Source of the DNA: a virus
DNA: 47,015 nucleotides
IMG/VR virus record: IMGVR_UViG_3300048091_000213
Coordinates: 1-47,015 of that record
Direction: 5' to 3' (one strand)
A model generated the notes under the pieces. That model searched no databases and had not been told where the DNA came from. It saw only the letters and a list, made by a program, of their open reading frames with translations. Both the position numbers and the translations under genes were made by a program. The number at the start of each line of letters is the position of its first letter. Positions within the stretch are counted from its first letter, which is position 1. Below are positions 9,605-46,527 of this stretch, piece after piece.

Positions 9605-9648
9605 CGTTTACAGGTACTTTCGAACTCTCCCAGCTACTCAACCATTTC

Positions 9649-9691
9649 TTATTTCGTTATTTCGTTATTTCGTTATTTCGTTAATTCGTTA
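9649..9691. repeat. tandem octamer array TTATTTCG
   Basis: Four perfect TTATTTCG units and one TTAATTCG unit follow each other directly (9649-9688), then TTA. This could be an unstable simple repeat or a protein-binding/DNA-unwinding array. Confidence 0.9.
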
Positions 9692-9800: not shown

Positions 9801-9887
9801 CCATACACCTATTGCCCTATGACAGGGTGTCCATATACACCCATTGCCCAAGACCAAAGTTCCCCTATACACCCATTGCCCTACGAC
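9801..9887. repeat. three iteron-like direct repeats with 32-bp period
   Basis: Cores TACACCTATTGCCC (9804), TACACCCATTGCCC (9836) and TACACCCATTGCCC (9868) start exactly 32 bases apart, about three helical turns. Downstream bases (TATGAC, AAGACC, TACGAC) are partly conserved. The geometry suggests cooperative binding by a protein such as a replication initiator or regulator. Confidence 0.8.
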
Positions 9888-41693: not shown

Positions 41694-42028
41694 CGCACTC
41701 ACAGGACAACACACAAGTGCAGGCCGCTTTGCTTCGCGACGACAGTGGGATCGACACGCCTGTAAAAAACAGTCTCTGCTGCGCAGCAGCAGGCATTATT
41801 GCTTCTTCCAGCGCCACTGCCGAGGCACTTATACCCCACGAAAAGCTGCGCGGGGCAGCGCTCGCTGATGCAACGCTAAACGCTCAGAAACGCCCGCTCG
41901 CGCAGCCTGTTGTGGGGTATAAGACTCCTGCGGCACAGTCGAGCGGTCTAGACATTCTGCGCAGCTACAGAGAAGCCCGTGAGAGCCTAGCGCAAGCGGT
42001 CATTGTCGAGGAGAACGCCAATGCATAA
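41690..42028 (+). CDS. hypothetical protein, low-complexity; contains inverted repeat
   Basis: The predicted protein has 112 residues with ATG 41690 overlapping the HD stop. It is Ala/Ser-rich and shows no domain. The DNA contains a perfect 12-bp inverted repeat, CTTATACCCCAC (41828-41839) and GTGGGGTATAAG (41912-41923), and other palindromic pieces. The frame might therefore overlap a regulatory RNA or DNA element. Coding status is uncertain. Confidence 0.45.
   Translation: MTHSQDNTQVQAALLRDDSGIDTPVKNSLCCAAAGIIASSSATAEALIPHEKLRGAALADATLNAQKRPLAQPVVGYKTPAAQSSGLDILRSYREARESLAQAVIVEENANA
41828..41923. repeat. perfect 12-bp inverted repeat with 72-base spacer
   Basis: CTTATACCCCAC and GTGGGGTATAAG are exact reverse complements. 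The interior is rich in GCGC pieces. It could form a hairpin in mRNA or be a protein site. Confidence 0.85.
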
Positions 42029-43823
42029 GCGCGTTCTCAGACACTTCCACATGTGCTGCGGTCTCGGCGGCGGCGCCAAGGGTTTCAACCGGGCTAAGCC
42101 CATCGTTGGGCATATCCAAGCTGAATGGCAATGCATCGGCGGCGTCGACGTGGACCCTGCCGGCCTGCGCGACTTTCAGCGTCTTTCCGGCGTTCCCGGA
42201 ACGCTGATGGATCTGTTCACCCGCGACCAGTACGCCCGCTTCCACGGTAAAGAGCCGCCTTCCGGCTGGACTGAGGCGAGCGCCGACGACCTGCGCCGCG
42301 CAGCCAGCAACGAACGTCCGGACGCTGTGTTCATTTCCAGCCCTTGCAAAGGCGCCTCGGGATTGCTGTCCGAAACAATGAGCCTGACGCCGAAGTATCA
42401 GGCTCTGAACGAGCTGACGTTGCGCTGCATCTGGCTGATGTGTGAGGCGTGGAAGGACGACCCGGTGTCGTTGATCGTCTTCGAGAACGTGCCGCGCCTT
42501 GCCACCCGTGGCCGCCACCTGCTCGACCAGATCAACAAGCTGCTGAACCACTACGGATACGCAGTCGCCGAAACCACGCACGACTGCGGCGTCATTGGCG
42601 GACTAGCCCAGAGCCGCAAGCGTTTCCTGCTGGTCGCCCGCCACATCGAAAAAGTGCCGCCGTTCCTGTACGAACCGGAAAAGAAGACGCTGAAGTCGGT
42701 CGGCTCGATCTTAGACCGCATGCCACTGGCCGGCGATATCGAAGCAGCCGGCCCGATGCACCGGGTTCCAGCGCTGCAATGGAAAACTTGGGTTCGCCTC
42801 GCCCTAGTCACCGCCGGCAAGGACTGGCGCAGCCTGAATGACTTGGCGATCGAGGACGGTTACCTCCGTGACCTGGTGATCGTGCCGGAATACCGCGCCG
42901 GCTATCTCGGTGTGCATGAATGGCAGGACACCGCCGGCACCGTTGCTGGGCGAAGCAGCCCAACGAACGGCGCGTTCTCGGTAGCAGATCCTCGCGCCAA
43001 GGCAGGCGCCCTGCAATATCAGCAGTACGGCGTGCGTCGCTGGGACGAAACGAGCGGCGCGGTAATCGGCGTCAAATCGCCCGGGCAAGGGACGTTCAGC
43101 GTTGCGGATCCTCGCCGACCTGGTGATGGATTCGGCAAGTACCTGGTAACGCCGTTCGACAATGCCGCAGGAACGGTCATCGCCGGCAGCACTACGGGGC
43201 AAGGCGCTTTTGCGGTTCAGGATCCCCGGTATCACAACTGGCACTCAGGAGCGAGCAGCCGGAAGCTTGGCGTTTGCCCTTGGGATAAAACTGCTGGGAC
43301 TGTCACAGGATCGCAGCAGGTAGCCAGTGGGGCATTGTCGATTGCAGACCCGCGCCCAGGCATGAAGCGCACGAAGGGAGACGCGTACCTGACTGGCGGC
43401 CACTACGGCGTCGTCGGCTGGAACGAGCAATGCGGCGCCGTATCGGCCAGCGCAAAGCAGGACAACGGTCGTTGGTCTGTGGCGGATCCCCGCATGCCGG
43501 AAGCCAATGACCGTCTAACCTGCGTTATCGAAAGCCTCGACGGCACCTGGCACCGACCATTCACCACACTGGAGTTAGCCGCGCTCCAGAGCCTGGTCGA
43601 ACCAGAAGAATTGTTCGAGCTGGACGGCTTAAGCGATCAGGCATGGCGCGAGCGGATCGGTAACGCGGTGCCGCCGGCCGCAGCCGAAGCAATCGCGCAT
43701 GTGATGGGCACCACCCTACTACTGGCTGCCGCCGGCGAAACCTTCATGCTCAACAGCATGCCGATCTGGGTGCGCCCGGTCGCAGTGGGACTGAGCGTGG
43801 CACAGCAGGAGGCACAGGCATGA
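42021..43823 (+). CDS. C5 cytosine DNA methyltransferase with tandem-repeat middle
   Basis: The predicted protein has 600 residues from ATG 42021 (GAGGAG at 42008). Motif I-like HMCCGLGGGAKGF, catalytic PC in FISSPCKGAS (Cys109), ENV in IVFENVPRL (155-157), motif VIII QSRKRFLLVA (~197-206) and RIGNAVPP (~545-552) define a C5 enzyme. Between motif VIII and the end lie five repeats of ~38-47 residues (about residues 296-504), each with a pattern like YGVxxWDxTAGTV and ending in VADPR. They occupy the target-recognition position. Family members occur in Pseudomonas phages; a role for the repeats is not known to me. Confidence 0.92.
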   Translation: MHKRVLRHFHMCCGLGGGAKGFNRAKPIVGHIQAEWQCIGGVDVDPAGLRDFQRLSGVPGTLMDLFTRDQYARFHGKEPPSGWTEASADDLRRAASNERPDAVFISSPCKGASGLLSETMSLTPKYQALNELTLRCIWLMCEAWKDDPVSLIVFENVPRLATRGRHLLDQINKLLNHYGYAVAETTHDCGVIGGLAQSRKRFLLVARHIEKVPPFLYEPEKKTLKSVGSILDRMPLAGDIEAAGPMHRVPALQWKTWVRLALVTAGKDWRSLNDLAIEDGYLRDLVIVPEYRAGYLGVHEWQDTAGTVAGRSSPTNGAFSVADPRAKAGALQYQQYGVRRWDETSGAVIGVKSPGQGTFSVADPRRPGDGFGKYLVTPFDNAAGTVIAGSTTGQGAFAVQDPRYHNWHSGASSRKLGVCPWDKTAGTVTGSQQVASGALSIADPRPGMKRTKGDAYLTGGHYGVVGWNEQCGAVSASAKQDNGRWSVADPRMPEANDRLTCVIESLDGTWHRPFTTLELAALQSLVEPEELFELDGLSDQAWRERIGNAVPPAAAEAIAHVMGTTLLLAAAGETFMLNSMPIWVRPVAVGLSVAQQEAQA

Positions 43824-43882
43824 ACACTCACAATGTGTACGAGTGGAGCCTGGAGCCGATGATCAAACTGGAGTCAGCATAA
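43820..43882 (+). CDS. possible 20-residue leader-like peptide
   Basis: ATG 43820 overlaps the methyltransferase stop and TAA overlaps the next ATG at 43882. The peptide MNTHNVYEWSLEPMIKLESA has no recognised feature. It may only couple translation. Confidence 0.35.
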   Translation: MNTHNVYEWSLEPMIKLESA

Positions 43883-44148
43883 TGATATTCGACGCCAAAA
43901 CCGACACGCTGCCTACCGCAACCATCAGCGGCGTTACTCACGAAGGGTTCACCTGCATCACCCACGACGGAAAAAAACTCCGCATGGCCTTGGTCGACGA
44001 GCAGGGCAACATTGTCGACGCCGGAAACCACGTCGCTCAGGAAGCCTGGAACGTGTGCATCCAAGTGCAACACAACTTCTGGATTGGGCAAGGCCATCTT
44101 CGGGTACTAAGCAAACCCCTACCGCTAGCCCAAGAAAAAGCCGCCTAA
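43882..44148 (+). CDS. hypothetical phage protein
   Basis: The predicted protein has 88 residues from ATG 43882 with GGAG ten bases upstream. It is a small beta-rich acidic protein (ATISGVTHEGFTCITHDGKKLR). No family recognised. It is the last gene in the methyltransferase run. Confidence 0.6.
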   Translation: MIFDAKTDTLPTATISGVTHEGFTCITHDGKKLRMALVDEQGNIVDAGNHVAQEAWNVCIQVQHNFWIGQGHLRVLSKPLPLAQEKAA

Positions 44149-44172: not shown

Positions 44173-44814
44173 ATGACGAAAAGTAGAGGGATTAAACGCC
44201 CGACTTGGGTATGGACCCAAGCACAAATCATGCTGATGACAGAAAAATTTGCATTCACTGTAAATAAAGATTTAGCCCAAGAAATTGGATGCACTGTTCC
44301 ACAATTAACCCGAAAGGCAGTATCGCTGGGCCTAAAAAAATCCGGGATATCGATGCTTACTGGACGGACGCTTTCTCCAACTCACCGAGAAAGCATTAAG
44401 CAGGGGCTATTAAAAGCACACGAAGAGGGGAGATTAAAACTCCCACCTGAAACAACTATTCACGCCATGCGGGAGGGAGCAAAGCGCCCCGAGGCCGTCG
44501 CCAAACGGGCAGCACTTGCCAGCAAAAAAATGAAGGGGAGACCTCAGCGTATGGATGGACTTAGTGCCGCAGCAGAACATAACGCTCGGTCCATAACGTA
44601 TACGGTTCTGACACCCAGCAGGGTCACTCTAACCTTCAAAAACCTCAGCAACTTTGTCCGCCAGAATAGTCACTTATTTGCTGATGATGACGTGATATGG
44701 CGCCCCCCTCAAAGCCATCCATGGTGCAGAGCTCAAAGAGGCCTCTATTCCTTATTCAAGGAAACCAAACCTGTCGAACAATGGAAAGGATGGCGAGCAG
44801 TTAGAAAAACCTAA
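44173..44814 (+). CDS. HTH/NUMOD-like protein without visible nuclease domain
   Basis: The predicted protein has 213 residues. The N-terminal W-x-x-Q segment and VNKDLAQEIGCTVPQLTRKAVSLGLKKSG look like the HTH that starts HNH homing endonucleases. SPTHRESIKQGLLKAHEEGRL resembles NUMOD3. TPSRVTLTFKNLSNFVRQ resembles the NUMOD1-type tail. No HNH or GIY-YIG motif is seen, so it may be a degraded or regulatory derivative. Base composition is lower in GC than the methyltransferase gene. Confidence 0.6.
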   Translation: MTKSRGIKRPTWVWTQAQIMLMTEKFAFTVNKDLAQEIGCTVPQLTRKAVSLGLKKSGISMLTGRTLSPTHRESIKQGLLKAHEEGRLKLPPETTIHAMREGAKRPEAVAKRAALASKKMKGRPQRMDGLSAAAEHNARSITYTVLTPSRVTLTFKNLSNFVRQNSHLFADDDVIWRPPQSHPWCRAQRGLYSLFKETKPVEQWKGWRAVRKT

Positions 44815-44875: not shown

Positions 44876-46492
44876 CTAAGCCCCCATCCCTGCTCGCCAT
44901 TCCCCTGTTTTTCGATCAATACGAAGCAATCGGGGCTGGCCACCTTTCCCGACCAATAATAAGTCGATCACATTTCCATCTCGTGCAGTTGCTTGCATCC
45001 CGTGGTGGTAGACAACTATTCGCTCGAAAGTATCTCTTACCAAGTGCCGCACTTTCATCCGTGCATCGAAGTCCATCATCTCAACTCCTGAAGACAACTT
45101 TGCCCACGCCTCAGAAAGCCCAGGTTGGTCACGGTTTGATACCGCTACCAGTTCGCGCTCGGCCTGAGCTATATCTTTTTGCTTTGCTGACAGCAGCTCC
45201 TCAAGTTCGCGAGCCTTGCGGACGAATACCAGCGGCGCCGCACCACCTTCGGCCGCCAGCAGAGCCTCACTCACCCGTTCCAGTTGCTGCTCGATAAGTG
45301 CCGCCTCGCTCTTTGCAGCCACCAGCCGTCCTTGTATCAATTGCGACTGGTCATTGCCTTCCAACAGGCTGCTGAGGTTCATGCGGTCGGTGCAATAGCT
45401 CATTAACGCTTTCTCTATAGGAACGACACTGCAACTACCACCGACAGAACAACCCTTGTTATGTGAATACCCCACGCAGATCAAACGCCGATGACCATCA
45501 GATAAGGTGCCGTCAGCTTTGGCCCTGTGCATAACGTTCTGCCCAACTACGGCCGTACCGCAGTATCCGCAATAAGTGATCCCTAAACCGGTAACAAGTC
45601 CGGGGATTTCCCCCTTACCCTTGCGCCTGACCCGGCTCTCAACGAGCATTGAAAGATCGGCGAATTCATCGGCGGTCATTATCGACGGGTAATATCCTTC
45701 AAGCCGATACGTTTCACCATCCAGCTCTAGCACCTTCACGCCCATCAATGCCGGCAGCCGGACAAGCCGGTGCACCTGCAGTGCTGTGATGCCTTTCGTG
45801 GTGACGGACAGACCGCGTTCAGTCAACTCTCGAATAATACGAACAGAACCATAGCCCTGTCGGAACAGATCGATCACCAGGCGCACACCCTCGACACGCT
45901 CTGGTAGCAGCTGGAATACCTGGCCATCCCACTGCAACCACTGCGGATCTTTGCCGTTTCGAATAATGCCCCGGTAAGTACCAGCAATCCACCCTTCGCA
46001 CTGCCGGCGGATTGCGGCCTTCACACGCTTTGATTTGGTGTCTGATTCTTCGTGCGCACGAATCATCACCAGAAGCGAATACACCAGGTCCATCGGCTGA
46101 GCCTTCAAGCCGGCTCGGTTGTATTCTCGGCCGTCACTAGCAGTAACCACAGTGATGCCAGCATTGACGATTTGAGCCAACTGGGCTTGAGCCTGAATCG
46201 GCTCGGCACGGCTCAGGCGATCCAGCCCTTCAACGACCAGGACAGAACCGTCCGCAATGAGACCGTCTTCGACAGCCTGCAGGAAGACGCCCAACGCCCC
46301 CTGCTTGACGTGACGCTGGTGATAGGCGGATAACCCTTCATCTCTCAGGGATAGTGACTCATCCAGATCGAGTCCCTTCTCACTTGCCCAGCGCTGTGCG
46401 TACTGGAGCTGACGGTCGGCACTGCTGCCGGTCGCCTGCCTAGGATCAGAGAATCGCAAATAGCTGTATACTCTCGCGCCACTTTTAGCCAT
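44876..46492 (-). CDS. int: large serine recombinase (phage integrase)
   Basis: The predicted protein has 538 residues from ATG 46492; a TTG at 46504 would add four. The N-terminal resolvase domain has catalytic Ser15 in YLRFSD, a [17 protein letters not shown] segment and [13 protein letters not shown]. The recombinase domain (about 150-300) is followed by a zinc ribbon ([11 protein letters not shown] ... [11 protein letters not shown]) and a coiled coil. Large serine integrases need no host factor for integration; excision uses a directionality factor. It lies 80 bases from attR. Confidence 0.95.
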
Positions 46493-46527
46493 TAGAAAAA
46501 ACAAGCCCTGATGAGGATCTACCTATA

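Follow-up and report, generated by a model that had tools for sequence, protein, structure and literature searches.

A phage C5-cytosine methyltransferase with a tandem array of putative interchangeable target-recognition modules

The methyltransferase gene and its repeat array

The viral DNA analysed here, a stretch of 47,015 nucleotides referred to below as the window, carries on its plus strand a C5-cytosine DNA methyltransferase gene (42021-43823) with a predicted product of 600 amino acids. Its reading frame (42003-43823) is open from a TTG at 42003, the ATG at 42021 being the probable start codon given the RBS-like GAGGAG that precedes it. The product matches PF00145 (E=6.7e-13; 49.2 bits against a curated cut-off of 22) and has the Pro-Cys, ENV and motif X signatures of that family, with the match split into an N-terminal and a C-terminal stretch which flank a repeat array. 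By profile it also belongs to the phage DNA methyltransferase groups phrog_32684 (E=8e-140, residues 7-251) and phrog_116 (1.8e-54); PHROG 32684 is restricted to the N-terminal core, and repeats or multispecificity are named in neither entry as listed. The N-terminal catalytic core (42021-42902; motifs I-VIII, about 293 aa before the array) contains PCKG (42342-42353), ENV (42483-42491) and Q-S-R-K-R (42609-42623), and the C-terminal core (43494-43823; 109 aa after the array) contains DGTWHRPFTT (43539-43568, motif IX region) and GNAVPP (43659-43676, motif X). The window protein has motifs IV, VI, IX and X, and 270-273 of the 274 homologues described below retain them intact, those of the C-terminal core being kept in 272-273. 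As judged from its sequence, the gene encodes an orphan C5 methyltransferase furnished with the catalytic motifs.

The scanned neighbours of this gene in the window include an antirepressor, a PrtN-like protein, a deoxynucleotidase, an S24 repressor and a serine integrase. A large serine recombinase gene lies on the minus strand (44876-46504) near the 3' end of the methyltransferase gene, and the two ORFs in between (43843-44148 and 44173-44814) matched no Pfam or PHROG profile. No restriction endonuclease was found near the methyltransferase, either among the scanned neighbours in the window or in the annotated neighbourhoods of homologues that were viewed, and the arrangement of a restriction-modification (RM) system with an adjacent cognate endonuclease was not observed. 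Short tandem arrays occur elsewhere in the window, at 9644-9691 (ATTTCGTT x 6) and at 9803-9887 (a 32-base unit x 2.7).

The repeat array of the methyltransferase spans 42903-43493, between motif VIII and the motif IX region, and by its location among the motifs it can be assigned to the position that the target-recognition domain (TRD) occupies in other C5 enzymes. It consists of five units of exactly 31 residues each (protein positions 301-331, 341-371, 379-409, 421-451 and 467-497), all encoded on the plus strand: module 1 (42903-42995; type T1, loop GRSSPTNGAF), module 2 (43023-43115; T3, GVKSPGQGTF), module 3 (43137-43229; T4, AGSTTGQGAF), module 4 (43263-43355; T5, GSQQVASGAL) and module 5 (43401-43493; T2, ASAKQDNGRW), giving the order T1-T3-T4-T5-T2 in the typing explained below. 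Each repeat scores 53-61 bits against the family repeat profile, and the best self-pair of 31-mers scores 90 as compared with 20.7 +/- 5.6 (maximum 54) in 500 shuffles. Tandem Repeats Finder detected no array in the DNA of the repeat region and the five units share 32-55% identity at the protein level and 43-57% at the DNA level; the latter value and the absence of a detectable DNA array indicate, therefore, that these are old protein repeats and not a slippery DNA repeat. An earlier note on this DNA had described tandem repeats in the target-recognition region over essentially the same span, sharing a pattern from hydrophobic-G-V to S-V-A-D-P-R, and it was right on both counts, the pattern matching the columns conserved over 979 repeats of the family (V4, W7, G12, T13, V14, G23, V27, A28, D29, P30 and R31). 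The shared DNA blocks it also mentioned can be recognised as GGATCC in repeats 2, 3 and 5, which is there because this hexamer spans the codons for A/Q-D-P, but a wider likeness of the repeats as DNA did not hold at the low identity given above.

Relatives, module types and exchange of modules

Relatives were collected from viral contigs, species genomes, phage records and plasmids, and 274 distinct full-length proteins were kept after removal of duplicates. They reside on phages, plasmids and chromosomes, their hosts being mostly Proteobacteria and also Bacillus/Paenibacillus. Phage members include those of Pseudomonas phages LKA5, H66 and Dobby, Sinorhizobium phage PBC5 and Marinobacter phage PS3, and others are found on Burkholderia, Roseomonas and Nitratidesulfovibrio replicons; the Bacillus and Paenibacillus plasmid members show about 38-41% identity, and a search of viral contigs with a Bacillus plasmid member found nothing. 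A family gene is present in 167 plasmid records, 66 of them predicted to be conjugative, and at some plasmid loci (such as L331, L334 and L335) rdgC or an N-6 DNA methylase gene stands beside it. In three genomes (G055, G028 and G078) the modular methyltransferase is present twice, as separate copies whose lengths differ in two of these genomes.

The number of modules varies from two to eight: one protein has 2, seven have 3, 61 have 4, 89 have 5, 108 have 6, six have 7 and two have 8. Protein length follows 389 + 42.2 x module number (r = 0.958), with near-constant core lengths and a spacing of 42 aa per repeat, linker included. This spacing and the W-D pattern led us to consider a WD-like beta-propeller, a candidate that was rejected on the existence of arrays of two and three modules and the lack of any predicted propeller. 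A search for stray modules covered 148 genomes sampled from the family to which P. aeruginosa PA7 belongs. Its strong hits came from 11 genomes, and every one of them lay in an ORF of 563-728 aa that has three or more modules; four weak single hits (E 3e-4 to 7e-3) in the same 148 genomes were judged to be due to chance.

Module types were defined as clusters on loop columns 15-26 and depend on the clustering threshold. The 1418 modules fell into about 47 types, and 97% of the modules belong to 21 of these. When types were set by columns 20-26 only, the held-out columns 15-19 proved to be fixed as well (within-type/global entropy 0.29-0.50), while the outer hairpin drifts within types at its columns 6 and 8-11, almost without constraint (entropy ratio 0.77-0.92). 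What is conserved as a unit is therefore the loop, whose columns 17-22 have a polar share of 73-96%; to be fixed within a type in this way is how a recognition loop should be expected to behave.

The 274 proteins contain 82 distinct arrays. Identical arrays are shared by 97% of the pairs above 99.5% core identity, by 67% of those at 96-98% and by only 15% at 85-90%. Two examples illustrate the change: L037 and L171 have different arrays next to N-terminal cores that are 100% identical, and L326 and L020 are closely similar throughout the gene save for one clean in-frame insertion of T5, the type of module 4 of the window protein, which is likewise cleanly missing from some close relatives. Close relatives gain, lose and swap whole modules in frame. 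Constancy of repeat number and sequence in homologues, which the earlier note had named as evidence against its own reading, is not what we found, since both vary even among close relatives. Its suggestion that copy number could vary by recombination fared less well if recombination between the repeats of one gene is meant, because the repeats are too diverged for this to be the main route and it is whole typed modules that are gained or lost; given this divergence at the DNA level, exchange between related elements would be the simpler reading.

Proposed role of the modules

The window protein, encoded by a temperate Pseudomonas phage, is in our view probably a C5-cytosine methyltransferase of modular build and multiple specificity, with the modules acting as interchangeable TRDs. 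A single catalytic core would serve a tandem array of small recognition modules, five in the window protein, each of them a putative beta-hairpin whose variable loop (columns 15-26) would contact one short DNA target, and one enzyme could in this manner methylate several different sequences, one per module. As in-frame cassettes gained, lost and exchanged between related phages and plasmids, the modules would alter the set of protected sites with the core kept constant, the likely purpose being to shield the DNA of the element from several host restriction systems by means of one gene (see also PMC8936443). We infer DNA binding by the modules, a target proper to each of them and an anti-restriction role; the varied arrays suggest multi-sequence methylation and quick re-tailoring against host restriction enzymes, and the idea put forward in the earlier note that the repeats bind several targets would fit this pattern of module variation.

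Not all modules need to contribute equally. T1 is first in 240 of the 274 proteins and T2 is last in all of its 243 occurrences, T3 is usually second and the interior, where T4 and T5 of the window protein are located, is variable. T1, T3 and T2 are almost always present, and some modules may therefore be structural caps instead of independent recognisers. A stricter version of this argument would confine DNA recognition to interior types (T4-T9 and others) acting as specificity cassettes, with T1, T2 and perhaps T3 providing a folding frame, and besides the fixed ends of the arrays it could invoke the natural two-module protein, which is made of a T1-like and a T2-like module alone. We find it unlikely, however, given that T1 and T2 share with other modules both the framework and type-specific loops, and that the Bacillus/Paenibacillus-like relatives begin and end with other types (T18 and T14).

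The arrays could also be read as a repeat code comparable to that of TAL effectors, with the modules forming a solenoid in which each reads a part of a single long composite site, so that arrays track targets. Such a code would need repeats of constant length in which a variable loop is set in a conserved framework, and the modules have this form; a module order that is partly conserved also agrees with it. The order is in part flexible, with T7 preceding T4 in 16 distinct arrays and following it in 2. Nevertheless, a base-by-base code would reuse its modules freely, and interior types are duplicated in only 3 of 74 arrays as against the 17.1 +/- 3.1 expected from shuffles in which types were permuted within slots of equal position and array length. 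This avoidance of duplicates persisted when each 80% or 90% core cluster was represented by a single protein and under a stricter type definition, and weakened upon coarse merging of types (threshold 0.6; 16 observed versus 21.7 expected). Related arrays are not fully independent observations. The fixed types of the first and last modules and the ability of one module to drop out leaving the remainder nearly unchanged speak likewise against a composite site, which we therefore regard as quite unlikely, and with it the notion of the earlier note that the repeats read several bases in this fashion. That interior types are hardly ever repeated favours instead one target per module, as proposed for the multispecific enzyme, and recombinational loss of duplicated DNA could account for part of the same effect.

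Structural models inform mainly on the core. AlphaFold2 run on the window protein with a mixed-array alignment gave a pLDDT of about 33 in the array. In the model of the natural two-module relative (L397, 107 aligned rows) the core is mostly above 90, and the modules are below 50 at residues 288-338 and at about 53-78 in the last module. A fold search with this model retrieved DNMT1, M.HaeIII and M.HhaI (E 1e-10 to 1e-14, TM about 0.4-0.5), its core having the fold of known C5 enzymes and its TRD being of low confidence. The single ordinary TRD that would have contradicted the earlier note did not appear in these predictions, which are of low confidence in that very region, and a search of the module sequence against PDB entries found no match; from their sequence pattern the modules probably fold as beta-hairpins. 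The want of a confident predicted structure might be taken to mean that the repeats act non-specifically, as a spacer or as an array for oligomerisation or protein binding, in an enzyme of low or single specificity, but this is very improbable. The array occupies precisely the slot of the TRD, a spacer would not be expected to keep polar loops invariant within each type or to avoid duplicates, and arrays of 2-8 units rule out a closed propeller with a fixed number of blades.

Comparison with known enzymes

Tandem TRDs within one C5 methyltransferase have been known from Bacillus phages since the 1980s, and multispecific enzymes of this kind have been studied in a handful of these phages. The Bacillus enzymes (M.SPRI, M.SPBI/phi3T, rho11, H2 and phi-BssHII) and the window protein have in common that they are phage orphan C5 methyltransferases with a single conserved core, and the variable region of the former likewise holds a tandem series of TRDs, each of about 40 aa, in sets that differ between close relatives. 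The comparison with them draws on background knowledge, reviews and deposited sequences. Comparison of the deposited sequences of SPR (439 aa), SPbeta (443 aa) and SPbetaL2 (510 aa) revealed segment-wise differences in the TRD region, and their TRDs show stretches comparable to the window modules (sPTITT...KIAV and ePAFTVNT..HGVAV). The repeat profile did not match SPbeta, SPR or SPbetaL2 (-4.5 to -4.8 bits), hhalign of the modules against SPbeta-type TRDs gave a probability of 0.1%, and the whole-protein profile scored only 1.5 bits, so that homology to the SPR/SPbeta enzymes beyond the general C5 core was not found in these searches. Unlike the Bacillus enzymes, the window family has between two and eight regular repeats per protein, each 31 residues long and built on a shared W...GTV...G...VADPR frame, and 47 module types common to a wide range of hosts. 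The window protein does have tandem units in the variable region of a single chain, for which we infer a role in recognition, and there is good support for the view that it would function in the manner of the Bacillus multispecific enzymes. Temperate Bacillus phages array several TRDs in one polypeptide against many RM systems (2025 review, PMC12707154).

Other systems provide more distant parallels. The swapping of TRD cassettes against a constant enzyme, with a consequent change of specificity, recalls HsdS of Type I RM systems, a separate subunit with two TRDs that each read half of one bipartite site (PMC12707154); the cassettes of the window family, in contrast, are tiny, many and placed within the catalytic chain. 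The monospecific M.HhaI and M.HaeIII share the core fold and motifs with the window protein but have a single TRD of ordinary length devoid of repeats.

What sets this family apart is the regular, numerous and widely shared modules. Our search of the literature for open-licence papers found none on this modular methyltransferase family. With some reserve, we lean towards the broader view that the modules represent a large shared pool of recognition hairpins of about 31 aa, each with its own target, and that proteobacterial and firmicute phages and plasmids shuffle them on one methyltransferase core to combine up to eight specificities. If this is true, the pool would amount to a natural plug-in recognition kit, larger and more regular than those that, to our knowledge, have been described for C5 enzymes. 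Hundreds of natural arrays are available, with aligned 31-residue modules, pairs that differ by plus or minus one module and types recurring across contexts, and they make the assignment of modules to motifs directly testable. Such an assignment would make it clear how a single gene enables phages and conjugative plasmids to evade several restriction systems, and the modules, if confirmed, would be small transplantable sequence readers. It is also tempting to think that the copies on large plasmids perhaps belong to anti-restriction gene sets.

The over- and under-representation of restriction sites was screened in the flanking DNA of loci with and without each module type, and CCGCGG appeared depleted near T4 genes and CAGCTG near T5 genes (p about 1e-5); because lineage and composition confound these figures, we set them aside as evidence.

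Two phage records deserve mention with regard to gene integrity and annotation. In Pseudomonas phage PA8 (2880-4040) the methyltransferase copy is broken, with its N-terminal part in another frame, the first module and much of the core missing, and the pieces annotated as hypothetical proteins. Sinorhizobium phage PBC5 (2971-5226) encodes an eight-module member which the original GenBank entry divides into several 'unknown' ORFs (orf51-54) and RefSeq presents as one methyltransferase.
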